A stretch of 48,202 nt of DNA from a virus, in IMG/VR virus record IMGVR_UViG_3300030099_005335, positions 1 through 48,202 of that record; one strand, given 5' to 3'. The notes beneath the pieces are model-generated. The model saw nothing but the letters and a program-made list of their open reading frames with translations, was not told the DNA's origin and made no database searches. Both the position numbers and the translations under genes were made by a program. Below, piece after piece: positions 3,732 through 48,202 of this stretch; positions within the stretch are counted from its first letter, which is position 1, and each line of letters opens with the position of its first letter.

Positions 3732-5220
3732 TTTACTAGATAGAGTTGTGGGGTACTTCAACCCCGAAGCTGGCCTAAAGCGTGAGCAAGCTAGAATTGC
3801 TACAGAGCAAGTGCGTGAATACAACGCCGCTAGCCGTGGTCGCAGACGTGGTAATTTACGCAATCGTAACAGCAGTGCAGCTAATGAAGTAAGTAAGGCC
3901 GCCGACCGTTTAGCTGGTATCAGTCAAGAGCTTGTGCGTAATAATCCATTAGCTCAACGCATTAAAATGATTATGGCTAGTAACGTTGCGGGTGATGGTA
4001 TTCGCGTGGATATTAATGGGAGTAATCAACGAGTTAACGCAGACTTTACAAATTACTTTGAGGGATGGGCTAATTCAACAGCATGTGACTTTGACGGCCA
4101 TTATAATCTGTTTGGCCTACAATGGCTTATGATTGCTACTATTGTTGAGTCGGGCGGCGTGTTGGTTCGCTTCCATATCAATAACGCACAACGTTACCCA
4201 CTTAGCTTACAGTTAATTGAACAGACGTATCTTGATACCACAATGGACACGCAGAAGACTAGTGGCGGTGGACAGATACTTGATGGCATTGAATACAATT
4301 CAACAGGACAGATTATACGCTATCATATACGTATTGATAATAACGGTACAAACACAGATGGTGTTTTAACACGTCGTAATTATGTACGCGGTAGTGAAAT
4401 GGTACACATCTTCCGTAAAGAGCGTCCGGGTCAACACTTAGGTGTATCTTGGTTAGCACAGATAGCAAACCACCTAGACCGTTACGATACATTGCAAGAT
4501 GCTAAAGTAACACAGCAGCAGATAGCAGCGTGTTTAGCTGTATTAGTAACAGAGGGCAATAGTAACCTTGGCACTAAAACTGATAGCCCGTTAATTGATA
4601 GGGTTGAACCGGGGATGATAGAATATGTACCAGAGGGTACAACTGTTAACACCGTTACACCTCCACGCGCCGATGATGCCAGTAGTTTTATCACAGAACT
4701 TAAAAATGATATTGCTGTAGGTGCAGGCTTAAACTACCAGCAGCTAACGGGTGATTACAGCCGTTTTAACTTTGCGTCAGGTCGAATGGGTAAGATTGAA
4801 TTTAACTTACTGCTTGATATGGCTCAGAAATTCATGCTTTTGCCAGCTTTAAATGTAATAATGGATAGGCTATTCTCTATATATCAATTGCAAGCTGGTA
4901 CTAATGCTAGAATAGAAGCTGAATGGGTATTCCCGCCACGCGCAGCAGTTGACCCGGGTGAAGAAGTTGAAACGGTTAAGAACAAGGTTCGTAGTGCGCT
5001 AATGACGCCACAAACTGCGGCTAAAATGTTTGGCACTAAGCTTGAGAGCGTTGTAACAGGTTGGGAAGACGCACTAGAATTAATGGGTGACCTTTCGTTT
5101 GACATACGACCTGACCAATTTAGTTCGGCAGGCAATCAACTAAATGCAGATGATGCAGCTAGTAGTAATGCTGGTGGAACAAATGCAAAAGATAATAATA
5201 ATAATAACGACGATAACTAA
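3721..5220 (+). CDS. Portal protein (lambda gpB family)
   Basis: A 499-residue portal protein, which should form the dodecameric ring through which DNA enters the head. It follows the lambda-family portal pattern: an Arg-rich N-terminus (ASRGRRRGNLRNRNSS), then RNNPLAQRIKMIMASNVAGD, a central WLAQIANHLDRYDTLQDAKV and a LNYQQLTGDYSRFNFASGRM segment (about residues 340-358), which is a signature of this family. The last 20 residues are Asn/Asp-rich low complexity. Unlike lambda, no gpC-like protease follows; the protease is fused to the capsid gene further on, and lysis genes come between. Confidence 0.92.
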   Translation: MATNLLDRVVGYFNPEAGLKREQARIATEQVREYNAASRGRRRGNLRNRNSSAANEVSKAADRLAGISQELVRNNPLAQRIKMIMASNVAGDGIRVDINGSNQRVNADFTNYFEGWANSTACDFDGHYNLFGLQWLMIATIVESGGVLVRFHINNAQRYPLSLQLIEQTYLDTTMDTQKTSGGGQILDGIEYNSTGQIIRYHIRIDNNGTNTDGVLTRRNYVRGSEMVHIFRKERPGQHLGVSWLAQIANHLDRYDTLQDAKVTQQQIAACLAVLVTEGNSNLGTKTDSPLIDRVEPGMIEYVPEGTTVNTVTPPRADDASSFITELKNDIAVGAGLNYQQLTGDYSRFNFASGRMGKIEFNLLLDMAQKFMLLPALNVIMDRLFSIYQLQAGTNARIEAEWVFPPRAAVDPGEEVETVKNKVRSALMTPQTAAKMFGTKLESVVTGWEDALELMGDLSFDIRPDQFSSAGNQLNADDAASSNAGGTNAKDNNNNNDDN

Positions 5221-40001: not shown

Positions 40002-40763
40002 TTAAACCTCTTTCCATTTGTTAAGTAGCGTGTAGAACTCGCTTGGTAAATCGCAATCGCTGAAACGTGCTTCGAACTCCACTAGTATATCCATCATGGC
40101 GTTATGGTCTGACTTCTTGAACCCGGCCAATGATGTACGGGTAACCTTTTCGCCAGTGGCTAACTGCTTCTTAATCTTCTCCTCACCAGCAAAACCATTA
40201 CGGTTTATTTCTTCTACTGCGGCTGCATAACCAAGTTGGCCTGACTTAACAGCTTCTACTATTTGTGGGCTGGCCGTCATTAACGTTAAGTGGTTAGTTA
40301 CGTCAGACTTACTACGCCCCACCAGCTTAGATATTTCAGTAGCACTAAGTCCACGACCTACTAAACGTTGATACGCTTGCGCTCGTTCTATGGGGGATAG
40401 GTTACGGCCTTGTGAACTGGTGATCATGAACGCTAATTCGTCTGACTCGTCACCAACGAAGTTCTTTACCTCAACAGCTTCTACTTTAGCTTTTACCGCC
40501 GCAGCAAAGCGATGGTGACCGTCGATAACTTTAAGACCCTGCGGTGTTGGTTTGACGACGATTGCGGGAACATATTTGCCTGCTTCATAGGCTTCTGCAA
40601 TACTATCTACATGTTCGGCGTCTAAGTCTCTAACGTTGAACCCGTCCTCAATGTAAATGCTTTTCTTAGCCATTTCAACAAAGTAAGTTTTCTGTACCTT
40701 GATGCCTAATTCGTCGCGTTCATCTTTGTTATTATACGCCTTACTAATGCTTGTACTGTTCAT
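40002..40763 (-). CDS. ParB-like DNA-binding protein
   Basis: A 253-residue protein. The N-terminal part has the ParB/Srx nuclease-like core with VIDGHHRFAAA (about residues 93-103; the GxHR box binds CTP in ParB proteins), and the centre has the ParB helix-turn-helix LSPIERAQAYQRL, then GLSATEISKLVGRSKSDVTN. No ParA gene is seen in the window. Solitary phage ParB-like proteins often act as transcription or DNA-replication regulators rather than in partition. Its own promoter holds the clearest copy of the operator, so it could also be a regulator of itself. Leader is AAGCAGAGGTAT. Confidence 0.82.
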   Translation of the reverse strand: MNSTSISKAYNNKDERDELGIKVQKTYFVEMAKKSIYIEDGFNVRDLDAEHVDSIAEAYEAGKYVPAIVVKPTPQGLKVIDGHHRFAAAVKAKVEAVEVKNFVGDESDELAFMITSSQGRNLSPIERAQAYQRLVGRGLSATEISKLVGRSKSDVTNHLTLMTASPQIVEAVKSGQLGYAAAVEEINRNGFAGEEKIKKQLATGEKVTRTSLAGFKKSDHNAMMDILVEFEARFSDCDLPSEFYTLLNKWKEV

Positions 40764-41677: not shown

Positions 41678-42081
41678 GATTTTTTCAACTCTGCTATTAG
41701 TTCAATATCTTTACGGTTACGGCCTACTGCACCTAGATTACCGTCACTGTTAATTGACCATTCCCCGCACTCCCAATGATGTACGCCGTATTCGCCCTCC
41801 TTATAATATTCACCCTCGCAAAAAGCATCCCAATCGTCAGACGGTGCGTTGTCAATAATTTCCTGTTCTTCATTTACTTTGCGTTCAATAATGCACCAGC
41901 TTGTATCGCCTATAAGGTATCGCCCGTCAAGTAGTTCATTATCAGATGAATAAAACGTACCATTTCTTTCTAGCGCATATTCAATTGTGCCGACGATTGA
42001 ATTACCCCCATTCCAACCTCTTGATGTAGTTAATGCAACATTCGCCCATCGTGGTGCTAAACTCCAATCTAAACTATTCAT
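41674..42081 (-). CDS. Acidic unknown protein
   Basis: A 135-residue acidic protein, Trp- and Asp/Glu-rich (GDTSWCIIERKVNEEQEIID, then PSDDWDAFCEG and HHWECGEWS). Strongly acidic small proteins of early phage operons are sometimes DNA mimics or inhibitors of host enzymes; there is no direct evidence for that here. Overlaps both neighbours by 4 bases. Confidence 0.55.
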   Translation of the reverse strand: MNSLDWSLAPRWANVALTTSRGWNGGNSIVGTIEYALERNGTFYSSDNELLDGRYLIGDTSWCIIERKVNEEQEIIDNAPSDDWDAFCEGEYYKEGEYGVHHWECGEWSINSDGNLGAVGRNRKDIELIAELKKS

Positions 42082-42623
42082 TCGTCTGTACTCCCAATGC
42101 CGCCGTTACGTTCAACGTTAGCGTAAGGGAACATTTGGCGGAACTGAACGCATACTGCTTGACCTATATCAGTACCCTTTTTAATCTTGACTTGCTTAGT
42201 GCCAATGTTCACATATTGAAACCCAACGTTGCCCGGGAAGTCAGATTCAATAATACCAATAGAGTTGACCAGAATGATTGTACCTACCTTTTTATACGTG
42301 CTTGACCGTGGTGCTATGATAAACATTTCGTCAGGCTGCATATGGTCAGGAATAGTTAGGTTGGTTGTAATGCAGACCATTTCACCCGGTTTAATCGTAA
42401 CGTCTTCCAAGCACTGCACGTCAGCCCCGGCGCTATCACGTGTCTTATGATGTATCGGCGCAAAGGCCGGGTGAATTAAGCGGCTGTTGTCGTGCGAGAC
42501 TAACACTTTTCCAGAGTCAACCAATTCGGTTACCTCTTCCATACTATAATTCTTGTTATAACAAAGCTGGTTTGTTGACACCCCGGTAGTGCCGCTAAGT
42601 TTAATAAATTCTAAAAGTTTCAT
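42078..42623 (-). CDS. dut: dUTPase with N-terminal winged-helix extension
   Basis: A 181-residue trimeric-type dUTPase that should remove dUTP from the nucleotide pool. Motifs: 1 DSAGADV (63-69), 2 APRSS (104-108), 3 GIIESDFPGN (123-132), 4 GQAVCVQF (154-161), 5 RNGGIGSTD (172-180). In motif 3 the usual catalytic Asp is Glu126. The first 52 residues, MKLLEFIKLSGTTGVSTNQL and on to VTELVDSGKVLV, look like a winged helix-turn-helix, which ordinary dUTPases lack. Some phage dUTPases double as regulators, so it may bind DNA as well. Confidence 0.8.
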   Translation of the reverse strand: MKLLEFIKLSGTTGVSTNQLCYNKNYSMEEVTELVDSGKVLVSHDNSRLIHPAFAPIHHKTRDSAGADVQCLEDVTIKPGEMVCITTNLTIPDHMQPDEMFIIAPRSSTYKKVGTIILVNSIGIIESDFPGNVGFQYVNIGTKQVKIKKGTDIGQAVCVQFRQMFPYANVERNGGIGSTDE

Positions 42624-42668: not shown

Positions 42669-43292
42669 TTAGTGTATTTTGCCAATAGCTACAAACTCGT
42701 TATCTACTTCCACATATACTAGCGCACCCGACTGTATCGCCTTATATGCCTTTGCATGTGGTGACATAGGGCGTGACTGTACGATAATAACATTGTCAAT
42801 CATTGGTAGTGACTGTTTCACTGGTTGACTGGTATAACAGTAAGATACCCCCACCACGTTACACTGTTTAAGTAGTATATTATATTGCATCTTGTGATGC
42901 CCTGCGTTTTGCAATAGGCTACTTAGTCTTATGTGAATACCCACACCTATCAGGGATACTCCCCATAGACAATAACTACCCCCATCCACGTAAGATACTC
43001 CGCCTGCCATTGAATCTGTGGGTGAGTATGTGAATGTGTTAACACCCCTGCCCGTCGGGTAACTAAGAACATACACGTTAGCTAGGCTAAGTGCGTTAAT
43101 GTGTGAGTGTGTAAAGCTTGGGTATTTAAAGTGTGGCGCGTGTAGCTTAGCTATCTCCTTAACTAAATATCCTACTTTAAAATACTGATTGTTAGCATAC
43201 AGGGCTAATATGTAAGCCATTCGCGTGCGCTTATGTATTAGTGCATTTACTGGCGCTGCATCTAGGAATGGTTTTGGTTCATAAGTAATCAT
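42669..43292 (-). CDS. Unknown early protein next to the origin
   Basis: A 207-residue protein from the ATG at 43292 (AGAGGA ribosome binding site, leader AAAGCAGAGGAT). Its first third is helical (TRMAYILALYANNQYFKVGY, then LVKEIAKLHAPHFKY), perhaps a DNA-binding domain, and the rest is beta-like with many Ser and Val. It is the first gene leftward from the iteron region and is governed by two operator copies, so a replication initiator or a regulator are both possible. No family recognised. Confidence 0.6.
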   Translation of the reverse strand: MITYEPKPFLDAAPVNALIHKRTRMAYILALYANNQYFKVGYLVKEIAKLHAPHFKYPSFTHSHINALSLANVYVLSYPTGRGVNTFTYSPTDSMAGGVSYVDGGSYCLWGVSLIGVGIHIRLSSLLQNAGHHKMQYNILLKQCNVVGVSYCYTSQPVKQSLPMIDNVIIVQSRPMSPHAKAYKAIQSGALVYVEVDNEFVAIGKIH

Positions 43293-43337
43293 AGTAATCC
43301 TCTGCTTTATTGTGGGGCGCGTCGTGGTGACTCGCTT

Positions 43338-43375
43338 ACCGTTGTAACAGTACACTACACTGTTTAACCCGTCAA
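43338..43375 (-). promoter_or_regulatory. Leftward promoter beside the origin, two operators
   Basis: Minus strand: TTGACG (43375-43370), 17-bp spacer, TACTGT (43352-43347). ACCGTTGTAACAGT (43338-43351) covers the -10 box and ACGGGT-TA-AACAGT (43372-43359) lies over the -35 and spacer; centres 21 bp apart, two helical turns. Confidence 0.65.
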
Positions 43376-43381
43376 CAGTGT

Positions 43382-43820
43382 TACCCGTAAATTACCTGTA
43401 ATTGCCTGTAATTGATAAAAAATACGGGCAGCGGTAAGCTATTGATATACATAAGGAAAAACGTTACAGGATTGGTTTGCTGCCCGTATTTCTATTTTAG
43501 GTACAGAATTTAAAAATTGCTTATAAACCAAGGATTTAGGTTATCGATTGCCTGTTACTACCTGTATTTTCTTACTTTTATATAAAGAGTTTATAATAAT
43601 AATAAATATATAAAACTCAGAAATTCACAGAAATAAAAGTTATGGAAAAATGGAAAATTACGGGCAATTAGGGTCATAAGTCGTTATTTACTTGGTTTAT
43701 CAATAACTTATAACTGCCCGTATTTTTAGCGCGTTAGAGGGAAAATGACGTAAGCCTATGATTTAACTAAGGAAAAATACGGGCAGCAGAAAAAGGAAAA
43801 TACGGGTAGTTACGGGCAAT
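43382..43820. other. Iteron region, candidate replication origin
   Basis: A very AT-rich, gene-free stretch with at least eight copies of the iteron TACGGGCAG/TACGGGCAA or TACGGGTAR in both directions (43382, 43423, 43480, 43659, 43714, 43778, 43801, 43811) and about four degenerate copies with A for G (TACAGGYAR; 43392-43410 in tandem at 10-bp steps, and 43551-43567). The pattern is that of an initiator-bound origin beside an AT-rich melting region. Divergent operator-controlled promoters flank it. Activity is inference. Confidence 0.65.
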
Positions 43821-44064
43821 TTTCTAGAGGCGACGTAAATCGCCCTATTAAAGTGAGCTATTTGGGTTTTTTGACTGTTGCACTGGTACAACGGTTTGTT
43901 TCTACCAAAATGGCTACATCAATAAAATCAATGACTTACAAAAAACTTTATTTATAGTTTGTTGATTTATAAGGACTTTTTAAATTAGATGAGAATACCG
44001 TTTGACGGGTTAAACAGTAAAGGCTACTGTTCGAGCTGTACCCACTACCTATAGGTTAACGATT
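43821..44064. other. Control region downstream of the iterons
   Basis: Non-coding. Holds an operator-like pair at 43874-43895 after a TTGACT box, an AT-rich stretch (43925-43990) and the promoter at 44002-44030. No open frame of note. Confidence 0.5.
44002..44039 (+). promoter_or_regulatory. Rightward promoter beside the origin, two operators
   Basis: TTGACG (44002-44007), 17-bp spacer, TACTGT (44025-44030), the same form as the leftward promoter across the origin. ACGGGTTAAACAGT (44005-44018) is identical, 14 of 14, to the reverse complement of the site at 43359-43372. A degenerate copy (44026-44039) covers the -10 box. Confidence 0.65.
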
Positions 44065-44247
44065 ATGAGCAAGTTATTTGATTTACTATTTTGGTTAGCG
44101 TTCTTATATGGTGCGTTCTGCGTACTGGAGTTAGGGCAAGCTTTACGCTTTAAACAATATGATATGATAGGGGATGCATTAAGCGGCTTATTATTTACCG
44201 CTATATGTACCGTTTTACTGGTACTGTTTAAACGGTGCTGTAAATAA
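44065..44247 (+). CDS. Small membrane protein
   Basis: A 60-residue protein with two membrane helices (about LFDLLFWLAFLYGAFCVLEL and ALSGLLFTAICTVLLVLF) and a Cys-Lys end. Under operator control next to the origin, it is an early gene; early small membrane proteins of phages often exclude superinfecting phages, but there is no specific evidence. Its last codons hold operator copies (44209-44236). Confidence 0.65.
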   Translation: MSKLFDLLFWLAFLYGAFCVLELGQALRFKQYDMIGDALSGLLFTAICTVLLVLFKRCCK

Positions 44248-44250
44248 CTG

Positions 44251-44279
44251 TTGTAACTGTTAAACAGTGCTGATAAGAT
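44251..44279 (+). promoter_or_regulatory. Promoter of second membrane protein gene, operator in spacer
   Basis: TTGTAA (44251-44256), 17-bp spacer, TAAGAT (44274-44279). ACTGTT-A-AACAGT (44256-44268) lies in the spacer and ACTGTTGTAACTGT (44247-44260) over the -35 box; further copies lie at 44209-44222 and 44223-44236. Confidence 0.55.
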
Positions 44280-44312
44280 TGCGTCACTTACTTAAATAAA
44301 GAGATAAACATT

Positions 44313-44591
44313 ATGGACACATTATTTGCAGGCATATTAATAGTTACAATCGCTTTAGTAGTTTTATTTTTCTCGATTATTAGTTATGAAATAGTAAAAG
44401 GTGTTCTAGCTGATATAAAAGATACACTATGTGCGATAGCTACTGTGTGTGTAATGATTGTATTACCAAGTTTAATTGTTATTTGGTTAGGTGCTGGTCT
44501 GATTGCGTTCGGCCTGTTAAACGCCTTTACCCTTGCGTTACTAACTGTCGTATGGTTTGTATATGCTTGGGCAATTCAAGAATTATTTTAA
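44313..44591 (+). CDS. Membrane protein with three helices
   Basis: A 92-residue, highly hydrophobic protein with about three membrane helices (LFAGILIVTIALVVLFFSII, then VCVMIVLPSLIVIWLGAGLI and a final ALLTVVWFVYAWAI). Family not recognised. It has the leader ACTTACTTAAAT that is repeated before the cassette at 44622. Possible superinfection or membrane function; not shown. Confidence 0.65.
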   Translation: MDTLFAGILIVTIALVVLFFSIISYEIVKGVLADIKDTLCAIATVCVMIVLPSLIVIWLGAGLIAFGLLNAFTLALLTVVWFVYAWAIQELF

Positions 44592-44593
44592 AA

Positions 44594-44608
44594 CTTACTT
44601 ACTTAAAT
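44594..44608. repeat. Inverted repeat, left side of AT-rich cassette
   Basis: CTTACTTACTTAAAT here is matched as its exact reverse complement at 47809-47823, on the other side of the ten-gene AT-rich block. A shorter direct copy (CTTACTTAAAT) lies before the preceding gene at 44286-44296. Confidence 0.6.
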
Positions 44609-44621
44609 AGAGAATATTATT

Positions 44622-45146
44622 ATGAAATCAGTAATAAATACAATTGCACGTTTATTAAATTCTAACATTGCTAAAAACTATGATCATAGTGCAAGCATGT
44701 TTAACGCTAAAATTGAAACACATACAAAGCAAAGCCGTTATTTTTTAGAGTCTAGTATGTTTGAATCTAGCACTGGTGAATGTTTACCGCGTGATTATGC
44801 CTTAAAAGTTATAGGCGATTTGCATATATCAAAGGTTTTAGAATTTGGTAATGATAAACAAAACGCTTTTGATTTTTTTGAAAACGCTGAATTTTTGAAA
44901 AGTGGAGCGCTTATACTTGATAGGTCTTTAACAAATTATGATAGTTTTTTATCGTACTTAAAAATACGCTGGGTTAATGATAGGGCTTATGATAACGGTT
45001 TAACGGCATGTTATAGCAATAGTCTATTTAAACTTATTATAAGCTATTGTGAGGGTGACTTGTGCGTTATTCATTGTGCAACTGATACCATTTTTCATAA
45101 TGAGTTAAAAGCGCATACAGACTATTACAAACAAAGCGAGTGTTAA
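44622..45146 (+). CDS. Unknown cassette protein 1
   Basis: A 174-residue soluble protein of unrecognised family, helical start (MKSVINTIARLLNSNIAKNY), later beta-like with several Cys. First of a block of ten plus-strand genes (44622-47803) with lower GC and other codon use than the rest of the window, for example many TTT, AAA and AAT codons. No signal peptide or membrane helix. Confidence 0.6.
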   Translation: MKSVINTIARLLNSNIAKNYDHSASMFNAKIETHTKQSRYFLESSMFESSTGECLPRDYALKVIGDLHISKVLEFGNDKQNAFDFFENAEFLKSGALILDRSLTNYDSFLSYLKIRWVNDRAYDNGLTACYSNSLFKLIISYCEGDLCVIHCATDTIFHNELKAHTDYYKQSEC

Positions 45147-45148
45147 TT

Positions 45149-45427
45149 ATGGCAAAAATTAAATTTTTTAGAGCTGGCGATTGTTCAAATATGAGCAAAT
45201 TAGTTGATATTTTTTCGTTCAACGTTTACGCCGATCGCTTTTATGGCTCAATTGATAGCCTTTTTATTGCTCATAGAAACAGGTACACAACTATCATAGA
45301 GATTGAAAAAGATCTTTTTAATTCACTTTTTAAATATAACCGGAAAAAAGGCAGGTACGAAAATATTAATCATTTGCCTTTTGAGAATCAACTAGCGCAA
45401 TTTAAAATCACTGTATTGGAGCATTAA
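45149..45427 (+). CDS. Unknown cassette protein 2
   Basis: A 92-residue basic protein (start ATG 45149, two bases after the upstream stop). Alternates strand and helix (KIKFFRAGDCSNMSKLVDIF, then FNVYADRFYG and HRNRYTTIIEIEKDLFNSL). No family recognised. Confidence 0.6.
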   Translation: MAKIKFFRAGDCSNMSKLVDIFSFNVYADRFYGSIDSLFIAHRNRYTTIIEIEKDLFNSLFKYNRKKGRYENINHLPFENQLAQFKITVLEH

Positions 45428-45429
45428 CA

Positions 45430-45750
45430 ATGAAATCATTAAAAGATCAATTTATTGAAGCGATAAGTAAAACAAACGCGTTCGGGGAATATCTAATTAA
45501 TGCAAAAGATAATGATTATCTGTTAGTGCATTGTGTTTATAATGAATTGCATAACGGCATTGAGATTCGAGCGGATTTTTGTTTGCCGACTTATTTTAGC
45601 GGGGACGTTGTCGAGTTGGAACACGGCGGTTTTGTTGTTCCTTTTGATCCTGATTACTTCGATAATATTGATCATTATTTTGAGACGTGTAGCGGTGAAA
45701 TAATAGAGGGTTATTTAATACCAAATGATCTTTTTTGTGAGGATGTTTAA
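45430..45750 (+). CDS. Unknown cassette protein 3, acidic
   Basis: A 106-residue acidic protein, beta-rich (NDYLLVHCVYNELHNGIEIR, then GDVVELEHGGFVVPFDPDYF). GGAG ribosome binding site in the end of the upstream gene. No family recognised; the acidity would suit an inhibitor, which is speculation. Confidence 0.6.
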   Translation: MKSLKDQFIEAISKTNAFGEYLINAKDNDYLLVHCVYNELHNGIEIRADFCLPTYFSGDVVELEHGGFVVPFDPDYFDNIDHYFETCSGEIIEGYLIPNDLFCEDV

Positions 45751-45752
45751 TT

Positions 45753-46079
45753 ATGGCTACTTTAAAAAAACATACCTTTGGTGAAGTTATGACTATGGAG
45801 CATTCAAAAGATTATACCGGGTATTTAGTGCGCTTGAATTTCAGTTTAGGATTAGGTAATAATTTTAGTTACTCGCAGTTTATAGAGTCTATAATTTACG
45901 ACATGAAACCCGAAAATGCTCAAGAGCTGTTTATTGAGTGGTCGCGCGATATTGATTTAAATAGTGATTTAATAATTATAGATTCGTCTAATTGTGAGCT
46001 AAACACTTGCGCAAGTGATTTTAATGACCACACCCGCCACGGTTGGGTTAATCACTGTAATTTTTATTACGGGGTTTAA
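45753..46079 (+). CDS. Unknown cassette protein 4, acidic
   Basis: A 108-residue acidic protein with strand pair GYLVRLNFSLGLGNN and a helix with FIEWSRDIDLNSD; His and Cys residues near the end (CASDFNDHTRHGWVNHC). Function unknown. Two-base gap to both neighbours. Confidence 0.6.
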   Translation: MATLKKHTFGEVMTMEHSKDYTGYLVRLNFSLGLGNNFSYSQFIESIIYDMKPENAQELFIEWSRDIDLNSDLIIIDSSNCELNTCASDFNDHTRHGWVNHCNFYYGV

Positions 46080-46081
46080 TT

Positions 46082-46285
46082 ATGAAAAGCATTATTAATT
46101 TATATCTTGATTGGGTTAACAATTATCTAAGCTTAGAAGTATTTGCCGAACATAATCAAATCAGTATTAAGTTAGCTAGTTTAATTATCAAAGAGGGTAG
46201 AATCCTGCATGAAATTAATACGGCGGGTATAGATAGCTTAAATACGCCAGCTAAAACATATTTTATCAATAAAATGGAACACTAA
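46082..46285 (+). CDS. Unknown cassette protein 5, small
   Basis: A 67-residue, mostly helical protein (INLYLDWVNNYLSLEVFAEH, then NQISIKLASLIIKEG), perhaps a small helix-turn-helix: NQISIKLASLIIKEGRIL has the spacing. Unproven. Same operon. Confidence 0.55.
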   Translation: MKSIINLYLDWVNNYLSLEVFAEHNQISIKLASLIIKEGRILHEINTAGIDSLNTPAKTYFINKMEH

Positions 46286-46286
46286 C

Positions 46287-46550
46287 ATGAAAGCATTACT
46301 TTATAAAATTTTACCAGAGACAGAAACTTTACCCGCACGCGTTAAGATTACGGCGCATGGTTTAAAACCGCGTACGTTTTTTTTAAATTCTGATTTATGG
46401 AACGCTAATCCATGCGCGCCAGTATATGAGCAAGCGTTCAATATGTTTTTAAGTGATCATAAATTACATCATTGGGGTAAACCGCAATTTGGCCAATTAC
46501 CTAATGGTGATTTTGTAGCAACTTTTAAGGATAAAGTTAATGGATATTAA
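46287..46550 (+). CDS. Unknown cassette protein 6
   Basis: An 87-residue basic protein with beta start (ALLYKILPETETLPARVKIT) and a Trp-rich centre. No family recognised. It overlaps the next gene by 11 bases. Confidence 0.6.
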   Translation: MKALLYKILPETETLPARVKITAHGLKPRTFFLNSDLWNANPCAPVYEQAFNMFLSDHKLHHWGKPQFGQLPNGDFVATFKDKVNGY

Positions 46551-46806
46551 TAACATCGGGTTATATGGCGTGCGCTTTGATTTAGAGCAAACAGCAATTA
46601 TTAATAAATTTTTTGCGCGCCTTGTTTGTTGTGAATCAGTAACTATTCATAAATTAGGCAATGGTTTGATTGAAGTTTACACGTATCAAGAAAACAGAAA
46701 TAATTTGTCATATGATCAGTCGTTTAATTTTAAGAATAAAAACTTTTTCATAGGTTATTTGCACGCGATTAATGAAACGTCAACGGGTAACATTTACACC
46801 ATTTAA
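46540..46806 (+). CDS. Unknown cassette protein 7
   Basis: An 88-residue protein: helix (FDLEQTAIINKFFARLVCCE), then strands (TIHKLGNGLIEVYTYQE). The two-layer alpha/beta pattern is like that of many small phage proteins of unknown role. ATG lies within the previous gene. Confidence 0.6.
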   Translation: MDINNIGLYGVRFDLEQTAIINKFFARLVCCESVTIHKLGNGLIEVYTYQENRNNLSYDQSFNFKNKNFFIGYLHAINETSTGNIYTI

Positions 46807-46819
46807 GAAGGCTTTAACA

Positions 46820-47431
46820 ATGTATATAGTAAAAATTGAACAACTAAATGTAATGGCAGGAAAACCTGGTAACTATGCAGGTATTAATTCAGAAATAGCA
46901 AAACGCGTTAACGCTTGGCATAATCGCGTGCGTTTATCACAATGTACTAATATTTTAGATTGGTTCGTTAATGACGATGATGTAATAATAATTGAACATG
47001 CAAATAAGTTTTTAGTTGAACAAAGCGGCTTTTATTCAACTGTATATCGGGATATTAAAAATAAAAATTCCTTTTATGCTGAAATTCCTTTTATGGCACG
47101 TATTGATATAAATAAGGTTATTCAATCTATGGGTTACACATTGGTAAGCAGTAAAAACCTATCATCATTTTTAGATTCTTGTACTAACAATTTAATTGAT
47201 ACTAAGCCGGAATTAATAACACTTGATAGGTTCAATAATCAATTAGAAGTAATGCCGCCGGCTAGTTGGAAATGCGGCTTTAATTATGAGATGTTCAGAT
47301 TGATTGAATTGTATTCAGCTAACATTGCAATTTGGTATGCAAGAAATATTAAGACTGGTAAATGTTATACGTTTAAGCATGATGTAAGCGCTACTGATGA
47401 CGAATTACTAAAGGTATTAAACAATGGTTAG
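46820..47431 (+). CDS. Unknown cassette protein 8
   Basis: A 203-residue protein from the ATG at 46820, preceded by AGAAGG, the only GAAGG found in this block; the open frame from 46772 would overlap the gene before. Alpha/beta (MYIVKIEQLNVMAGKPGNYA, then YSANIAIWYARNIKTGKCYT). No family recognised. Confidence 0.6.
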   Translation: MYIVKIEQLNVMAGKPGNYAGINSEIAKRVNAWHNRVRLSQCTNILDWFVNDDDVIIIEHANKFLVEQSGFYSTVYRDIKNKNSFYAEIPFMARIDINKVIQSMGYTLVSSKNLSSFLDSCTNNLIDTKPELITLDRFNNQLEVMPPASWKCGFNYEMFRLIELYSANIAIWYARNIKTGKCYTFKHDVSATDDELLKVLNNG

Positions 47432-47690
47432 TTTAGAGAATGAGATAAAACCGGATAAGTTTGCTAAGTTTTCTCGGATTGTTTACGGTGTAAGTGTTAA
47501 TAACGCTAAGCCGCAATTATACATAATCTTAGATAGTGCGTTTAATAAAATGGAAAACATATATCAACAATTAACGCTTGTTAATGCAGTTACCCGGCAC
47601 TGTATGTGTGATTTAAAGAATAGAGTAAATCATGTAACTTCTAACATTGGTACGGTTTATGAGTTAACCGCAATAGCAATAGAGTATTAA
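47424..47690 (+). CDS. Unknown cassette protein 9
   Basis: An 88-residue protein with a strand-helix-helix pattern (FSRIVYGVSVNNAKPQLYII, then NIYQQLTLVNAVTRHCMCDL). No family recognised. AAAGG ribosome binding site inside the end of the upstream gene. Confidence 0.6.
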   Translation: MVSLENEIKPDKFAKFSRIVYGVSVNNAKPQLYIILDSAFNKMENIYQQLTLVNAVTRHCMCDLKNRVNHVTSNIGTVYELTAIAIEY

Positions 47691-47692
47691 TT

Positions 47693-47803
47693 ATGGATTA
47701 TTTCATTGGGGTTTTAGTTGTATATATTGTTAATCCAAAAGCAAGCTTAGTTTTATTAGTTGGCCTTTTGTTAGCTTGGTTATACGCTAAAATCGTAGAT
47801 TAA
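47693..47803 (+). CDS. Cassette protein 10, 36-residue membrane peptide
   Basis: A very short protein, MDYFIGVLVVYIV followed by a second hydrophobic stretch (ASLVLLVGLLLAWLYA), so nearly the whole chain could sit in the membrane as one or two helices. The spacing to the upstream stop (2 bases) matches the cassette pattern, which argues that it is real. Last gene before a strong terminator. Confidence 0.55.
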   Translation: MDYFIGVLVVYIVNPKASLVLLVGLLLAWLYAKIVD

Positions 47804-47808
47804 ATTAA

Positions 47809-47823
47809 ATTTAAGTAAGTAAG
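47809..47823. repeat. Inverted repeat, right side of AT-rich cassette
   Basis: ATTTAAGTAAGTAAG, exact reverse complement of 44594-44608. It overlaps the start of the terminator hairpin. Confidence 0.6.
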
Positions 47824-47854
47824 GCGCGCCGGGTAAAACTAGCGCGCCTTTTTT
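47821..47854 (+). terminator. Strong terminator after the AT-rich cassette
   Basis: AAGGCGCGC (47821-47829) pairs with GCGCGCCTT (47842-47850), loop about 12 bases, followed by TTTT. Very GC-rich stem in AT-rich surroundings. Confidence 0.9.
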
Positions 47855-47870
47855 GTGCCTGTAATAAATA

Positions 47871-47900
47871 TACGCCACCATACGCCACCATACGCCACCA
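47871..47900. repeat. Three 10-bp tandem repeats
   Basis: TACGCCACCA is present three times in a row. The 10-bp step keeps the copies on one face of the helix, so a protein may bind here; 10-bp slippage is the simpler view. Confidence 0.8.
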
Positions 47901-47920
47901 TACATAAAACACCATAACAC

Positions 47921-48060
47921 ATGCAGGCTATCAGCATAAGCACACATGCAGGCTATCAGCATAAGCACACATGCAGGCTATCAGCATAAGCACACATGCA
48001 GGATATCAGCATAAGCACACATGCAGGCTATCAGCATAAGCACACATGCAGGCTATCAGT
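47921..48060. repeat. 25-bp tandem repeat array left of cos
   Basis: The 25-bp unit that begins ATGCAGGCTATCAGCATAAG and ends CACAC occurs at 47921, 47946, 47971, 47996 (one change, GG-A-TATC), 48021 and, cut to 15 bases, at 48046. Each unit holds the inverted pair ATGC/GCAT. There are no spacers, so it is not a CRISPR. Placed about 140 bp left of the proposed cos cut, it could be a terminase, origin or recombination site. Confidence 0.85.
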
Positions 48061-48190: not shown

Positions 48191-48202
48191 GGTACGCAGA
48201 AG
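48191..48202. other. Right genome end, candidate cos overhang
   Basis: GGTACGCAGAAG, identical to bases 1-12, preceded by GCGGG. See the left end. Confidence 0.65.

Follow-up and report, generated by a model that had tools for sequence, protein, structure and literature searches.

Is the AT-rich gene block near the right end of a marine phage genome a cassette that arrived recently, or is it a regular part of the genome layout in this group of phages? The question was raised by the viral DNA record IMGVR_UViG_3300030099_005335, of which we analysed positions 1 to 48,202 (the window, 48,202 nucleotides). Ten open reading frames, called g1 to g10 here, are enclosed by CTTACTTACTTAAAT, which starts at 44594, and by its exact reverse complement (47809-47823). 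A preliminary description of this DNA had taken the 15-bp inverted repeat for the ends of a recently gained accessory block, foreign in its use of GATC and a sensible place for counter-defence genes. Repeat and genes are both present and the observation was confirmed, while the interpretation proved to be half right. Judged by comparison with related genomes, the locus is a fixed slot in which genes are replaced one by one, not a single inserted unit. In our view the block is probably an accessory operon at the right end of a lambda-type cohesive-end (cos) phage, an operon whose products would act on the host or on its defences.

The operon occupies the same place in related phages

By sequence identity, the window is siphovirus B8b, a marine Pseudoalteromonas phage: positions 1-43298 are identical to the B8b contigs KM000061, KM000062 and KJ944830 across all overlaps. 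Relatives were found via terminase and primase and comprised Shewanella phage 1/44, the Nahant phages 1.049.O, 1.050.O, 1.055.O, 1.083.O and 2.096.O, and the contigs G001, G004 and L166. In all genomes that were read out, a rightward operon of short unknown genes is flanked by a divergent operon on the minus strand and by the terminase small subunit gene. Orientation, place and AT-richness are the same in 1/44, 1.049.O, 1.055.O, 1.083.O and 2.096.O, and the operon was also found in the three contigs. In the five named phages that were measured, the operon has a GC content of 32-35% versus 39-42% in the rest; G001, the nearest relative by terminase (72%), is the exception in AT-richness, with 44% GC in the operon and 45% elsewhere. 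All seven genomes tested have the element CYATTAAAGTG to the left of the operon, as CTATTAAAGTG at 43845-43855 on the plus strand of the window and at the same place in six relatives; we suspect that it is a promoter or an operator.

The B8b block resembles the right-end operons of 1/44, 1.049.O, 1.050.O, 1.055.O, 1.083.O and 2.096.O in position, orientation, AT-richness and its short unknown genes, and shares with these named relatives a tiny last membrane protein and a terminator. It differs from them in most of its genes, each of these phages having just one or two in common with B8b. Homologues at the same place were found for g1 in 1.049.O (E 4e-37), for g8 in 1.083.O (E 1e-13) and for g9 in 1/44 (E 3e-11). 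Among the relatives, g1 is limited to 1.049.O, 1.050.O and 1.055.O, the C-terminus of g8 to 1.083.O and 2.096.O, and g9 to 1/44. By eye, g10 can be matched to genes at the corresponding place of 1/44, 1.049.O, 1.055.O, 1.083.O, 2.096.O, G001, L166 and G004; this closing gene always encodes a tiny membrane protein of 30-56 residues directly 5' of the terminator, mostly of the form MxFIIxLIxxCLxPNxxxL... when compared by eye. That the last gene inside the repeat recurs at the same place in all relatives argues against a cassette bounded by the repeat. We saw no empty site, i.e. an otherwise similar phage without exactly this unit; the relatives hold another operon there. The whole block is not conserved among the related phages, which keep the place and differ in the genes, and a variable early-gene slot is a known kind of phage locus.

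The tandem array that follows the B8b operon is a feature shared with 1/44, 1.083.O and 2.096.O; arrays of unrelated sequence occur at the same place in these three phages and in L166. The tandem CAT repeats after the 1.083.O block (4717-4870 of locus L162), which the public record describes as CRISPR spacers, are a simple repeat array.

GATC avoidance is relaxed in part of the block

The block was described as AT-richer than its surroundings, with nine GATC sites as compared to 23 in the DNA before it, and these statements were exact. Its GC content is 0.317 (31.7%) versus 0.431 (43.1%) in the rest, GC content at third codon positions is 0.276 versus 0.370, and codon usage correlates with that of the core genes at 0.72, as compared to 0.92 for the minus-strand early genes. 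Against a second-order Markov expectation, which corrects for base and trinucleotide composition, GATC is at chance level in the block (9 observed, 8.1 expected, ratio 1.11) and strongly avoided in the remainder (23 observed, 85.4 expected, ratio 0.27), so that densities differ across the boundary also after correction (Fisher p = 2e-4; p = 0.017 in a scan over all 3,230-bp windows). If the genome-wide avoidance held inside the block, nine or more sites would have a probability of 4.5e-4. GATC is by far the most avoided 4-bp palindrome in the remainder, and its avoidance is common to all relatives (ratios 0.20-0.36) and well known in phages of GATC-cutting hosts (PMC6286503).

The excess is local. 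Six of the nine sites fall in g2-g3 (600 bp; 1.5 expected; P = 0.005), two in g2 and four in g3, while g4, g5, g8 and g9 have none. The corresponding ratios for block and rest are 0.87 versus 0.36 in 1.083.O and 1.01 versus 0.32 in 2.096.O; in 1/44 the block has a ratio of 0.09, an avoidance stronger than in its own remainder. The repeat does not mark the start of either the AT-rich region or the operon, both of which begin to its left: genes lie at 44065 and 44313, and the operon reaches 530 bp further. Only g2 and g3 look freshly foreign, and they are the best candidates for a recent arrival. The proposed recent gain of an accessory block thus holds insofar as gene content varies among relatives and g2-g3 look newly gained, and fails as the gain of a single cassette.

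The inverted repeat as a proposed leader-trailer complementarity

The repeat did not hold up as a cassette boundary. Its left arm (44594-44608, plus strand) is the second copy of a repeated leader element and lies 5' of g1; the first copy, ACTTACTTAAAT, lies 5' of g0 (44286-44297, plus strand). The right arm (47809-47823, plus strand) is a trailer, ATTTAAGTAAGTAAG, that is complementary to the leader and overlaps the terminator, with its last 3 nt inside the stem. This intrinsic terminator, AAGGCGCGC-N12-GCGCGCCTT-TTTT (47821-47854, plus strand), was recognised by eye and consists of a stem of AAGGCGCGC (47821-47829) and GCGCGCCTT (47842-47850) followed by T4; with a 12-nt loop it was beyond the limit of the scanner, which did not report it. 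As had been described, the terminator stands beside tandem repeats (47870-48059), a 10-bp unit repeated 3.4 times and then a 25-bp unit repeated 5.7 times. A promoter-like TTGTAA-N17-TAAGAT with the palindrome ACTGTTAAACAGT in its spacer was seen by eye at 44251-44279 on the plus strand; it agrees with 8 of 12 consensus positions, which is under the scanner threshold, and transcription would start just 3' of it, at about 44286. We took the inverted repeat as complementarity between the putative 5' leader and 3' trailer of the operon mRNA, not as a cassette boundary.

About 28% of simulations of the 4.8-kb AT-rich region contain a 15-bp inverted repeat, so that the repeat alone is not significant and needs other support. 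Contig G001 has two leaders, GTGTACTTACTTAA, 3' of TTGCAA-N17-TATTAT promoters, and a trailer, TTAAGTAAGTAAGTACAT, 5' of a terminator. The potential for leader-trailer pairing is common to B8b and G001, while the flanks differ (AAAT/ATTT in B8b, GTGTAC/GTACAT in G001). Predicted duplex energies are -18.2 and -12.6 kcal/mol in the window and -17.4 and -18.4 kcal/mol in G001, values found in at most 0.4% of shuffles. Besides B8b, the complementarity was seen only in this contig, and not in the operons of 1/44 and the Nahant phages. Pairing of the transcript ends, and any role for it in the cell, is suggested by just these two lineages and by a (CTTA)n motif of low complexity; as a simple alternative, TAAGTAAGTAA may merely provide a stop in all three frames. 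A collection-wide search with the 15-mer returned 107 stretches, and the pattern-derived loci that were fetched held no block protein at a convincing E-value.

g8 shares a domain with plasmid leading-region proteins

The best-founded single case for counter-defence would be g8 (203 aa, 46820-47431, plus strand). Its C-terminal ~75 residues (about 125-199) form an 'LPPxxW' domain that is common to 1.083.O, 2.096.O and proteins of plasmid leading regions, which were matched by tblastn against plasmids. With a hidden Markov model built from plasmid proteins only, g8 scored an E-value of 7.8e-16 and the 1.083.O and 2.096.O proteins about 1.7e-17, as compared to 3.5 for the best of 3,120 shuffled decoys, and hhalign aligned g8 with the plasmid family at a probability of 98.5%. 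On these profile comparisons, g8 shows homology to the plasmid proteins in its C-terminal domain, the sole part that phage and plasmid proteins have in common (~75 aa, 25-37% identity). Several of the plasmid homologues are named DUF1419 by NCBI, and homologues of g8 match PF07215 weakly (12-21 bits, below the 23-bit cut-off, at profile positions 48-88), unlike g8 itself, which has no match to this family. The main text of PMC11541004 and the other literature that we found do not name DUF1419.

An annotated ArdA, antirestriction, ArdC, ArdR, PsiA or PsiB gene lies within 9 kb in 10 of 14 plasmid neighbourhoods, which were picked from two hit lists and of which several share one backbone; a relaxase gene is often found just 3' of them. 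Anti-defence genes are over-represented in the leading regions of plasmids, together with uncharacterised families that are presumed to serve the same end (PMC11541004). B8b resembles these anti-defence islands in that most of the plasmids viewed carry the g8-domain gene beside ArdA, antirestriction, PsiB or PsiA genes and a relaxase, and in that the DNA of both would be expected to enter the cell early; B8b differs from them in lacking a recognised anti-defence gene. A counter-defence role is plausible for g8, through the plasmid relatives of its domain, and conjectural for the other block genes; the block as a counter-defence site is supported to this extent. No known anti-defence gene was matched in the cluster at the cut-offs of Pfam, NCBIfam and PADLOC. 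Through this domain, phages are tied to a plasmid gene that has no name and is common next to ArdA and PsiB; its function is therefore testable in laboratory E. coli. A match of g8 to an anti-restriction-nuclease PHROG (E 0.2) was treated as chance.

A predicted cohesive end to the right of the block

The terminase is of the gpA type (PF05876, 1.1e-65; PF20454, 3.4e-74), and a Nu1-like terminase small subunit is encoded at 412 (phrog_57, 8.3e-22). The last 12 nt of the window, GGTACGCAGAAG at 48191-48202, are identical to positions 1-12. The first base of KM000061 is window base 1, and at least eight related metagenomic contigs begin at the homologous base (L111, L112, L114, L118-L121, L128, L131), one of them directly after an Illumina adaptor. 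The terminal redundancy and these shared starts therefore indicate that 1 and 48202 are physical ends and, together with the gpA terminase, that the block lies at the right cohesive end, from which the operon is at most 4.2 kb away. B8b is like lambda-type cos packaging in its gpA ATPase and nuclease domains, the Nu1-like small subunit at the left end and the 12-nt redundancy, and is unlike lambda in the sequence of its overhangs, which were read from the sequence alone and would be 5' cohesive overhangs. By analogy with lambda, the right end would plausibly be the last to be packaged and the first to leave. A left-end motif, GG..CGCAGA..CGCG........ACTCAG, is conserved across the group.

Competing explanations for the block

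An exact inverted repeat, AT-richness, chance-level GATC amid avoidance elsewhere and differing codon use are what one would expect of a single 3.2-kb mobile cassette acquired recently, with the 15-bp repeats as its ends. We nevertheless regard such a cassette as very improbable: different relatives have homologues of g1, g8, g9 and g10 at the same place and most have AT-rich operons too, the GATC excess is clustered in g2-g3 with g4, g5, g8 and g9 free of the site, the left arm is also present 5' of g0 in an operon that extends 530 bp beyond it, and a repeat of this length is no rarity in the simulations. Moreover, no target duplication was found (AAAA 5' of the left arm, GCGC 3' of the right arm), and there is no transposase or integrase among the block proteins. 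It is also unlikely that the GATC and AT difference reflects mere relaxed selection on weakly conserved, mostly AT-rich genes without any recent gain. The 1.083.O and 2.096.O blocks, likewise relaxed for GATC and AT-rich, would fit this explanation, which is contradicted by the stronger avoidance in the 1/44 block, by the clustering in g2-g3 and by the homologues of g3, found only in unrelated large phages. Kept position, gene turnover and the plasmid domain of g8 therefore make this a plausible counter-defence locus, not a mobile cassette.

Host-takeover proteins are typically encoded by genes like these, which are small, variable and unannotated and lie in a probable early region, and the block proteins gave no anti-defence match; the products could thus be general inhibitors of host transcription, division or replication instead of counter-defence proteins. 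We hold this to be possible and somewhat doubtful, since on plasmids the relatives of g8 are found in the company of anti-restriction and anti-SOS genes and killing the host would be of less use to a plasmid. Two further proposals, rather unlikely when taken together, are that tailed phages have at their cohesive end an equivalent of the plasmid 'leading region', a variable operon that swaps genes with plasmids, with g8 as an anti-defence domain shared with them, and that leader and trailer close the mRNA into a ring, which would be a novel means of protecting a phage transcript from 5'-end-dependent decay.

We return to the reading that we prefer, an accessory operon at the right end of a cos phage. 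The arrangement itself was shown above: short AT-rich genes follow one another rightward with almost no gaps, bounded by a divergent control region rich in repeats and by the predicted cohesive end. Transcription of the operon would begin soon after entry, at promoters around 44.0-44.3 kb, and run to the terminator at 47.82 kb, the gene products would act on the host or host defences, and leader and trailer of the mRNA may pair and thereby protect or regulate the transcript. Several points weigh against this proposal. 'Early' and 'first to enter' are labels that we infer; the rule that the right end leaves first is contested for lambda itself (PMC10287942), and early entry of the block is for this reason only plausible. 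None of the block proteins reached the cut-offs of Pfam, NCBIfam or PADLOC (the last a library of defence, not anti-defence, systems), and none gave an anti-defence match; DUF1419 (PF07215) has no match in g8 or the window at the 23-bit cut-off. Four of the 14 plasmids lack an antirestriction or Psi gene nearby, and the sample has the shared backbone mentioned above. Finally, nothing comparable to the leader-trailer pairing was seen in 1/44, 1.049.O, 1.083.O and L166, insofar as their leaders could be guessed. If the proposal is right, these marine phages have at their right cohesive end a fixed place in which genes are exchanged rapidly, and its contents are candidates for screening; the points worth pursuing are the domain that g8 shares with plasmid leading regions and the leader-trailer complementarity.

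Genes of the operon

All genes of the operon are on the plus strand. Left of the proposed boundary lie its first gene, g0a (44065-44247), for a 60-aa two-helix membrane protein weakly similar to small membrane proteins in the 1.049.O, 1/44 and 1.083.O blocks, and g0 (44313-44591), for a 92-aa membrane protein. The homologues of g1 (174 aa, 44622-45146) at the same place in 1.049.O, 1.050.O and 1.055.O are ~40% identical. No homologue was found for g2 (92 aa, 45149-45427), g4 (108 aa, 45753-46079), g6 (87 aa, 46287-46550) or g7 (88 aa, 46540-46806). The g3 product (106 aa, 45430-45750), with homologues in phages Slickus01, V6Aob and RYC, is very acidic (net charge -16, pI 4.1). Such a charge would be fitting for a DNA mimic, which is a lead at most since no fold could be predicted. 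g5 (67 aa, 46082-46285) matches phrog_26669, of unknown function, and the Vibrio phages 1.187.O and VnaP encode small proteins that are ~60% identical to it. g9 (88 aa, 47424-47690) is 34% identical to its 1/44 homologue, and the operon ends with g10, a 36-aa membrane protein (47693-47803). The statement that no protein matches a known family is therefore correct at the Pfam, NCBIfam and PADLOC cut-offs and too broad otherwise, given the PHROG of g5 and the homologues of g1, g3, g5, g8 and g9.

A match of g2 to SduA_C of Shedu (15 bits, cut-off 27) was treated as chance. No transposase, integrase or homing nuclease was found among the proteins with Pfam, PHROG and NCBIfam, and no relatives turned up when viral contigs were scanned for g1 and g8 and genome contigs for g1. 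Single-sequence structure models had mean pLDDT values of 46 (g1) and 39 (g8), too poor for use.

The deposited genome and flanking features

The segment 43.3-48.2 kb (4.9 kb), which holds the whole block, is not in KM000061, KM000062 or KJ944830, the three contig records that the comparison covered; a fourth B8b contig, of 1,012 bp, was not among the records of the phage collection that was searched. The B8b genome was left unclosed, with four contigs of 42.7 kb in total as compared to 46 kb by pulsed-field gel electrophoresis, which showed a ladder of multimers (PMC4294664). The window adds 4.9 kb lacking from the published genome.

The dUTPase domain (PF00692, E 1e-16) resides in a 181-aa gene at 42078-42623, in agreement with the table of the B8b paper, while the annotation of KJ944830 puts the name on the neighbouring B8b_01 (228 aa, 42669-43355). 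A ParB-like protein (phrog_1033, E 3e-52) is encoded at 40002-40763 and might act in partition or as a nuclease; no integrase was noticed in the phage. Searching for relatives by ParB mostly gave unrelated phages and no further block homologues, and Rfam and tRNA scans gave no matches.

Between the divergent operons, at 43380-43825, variants of AAATACGGGCAGT, TTACGGGCAATT and TTGCCTGTAATT recur in both orientations as densely spaced short repeats, in what looks like an operator or replication-origin array. Repeated palindromes, ACTGTTRYAACWGT, occur at 44247-44268 and in the early regions of L109, L110, L162, L163 and L164; they overlap promoter-like hexamers (TTGCAA/TATAAC) in all relatives and are likely a phage-wide regulatory site. 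Adjoining the terminase small subunit, 992-1504 encodes a PapB-like transcription regulator (PF03333) with counterparts in all relatives, which is a candidate regulator of these palindromes.

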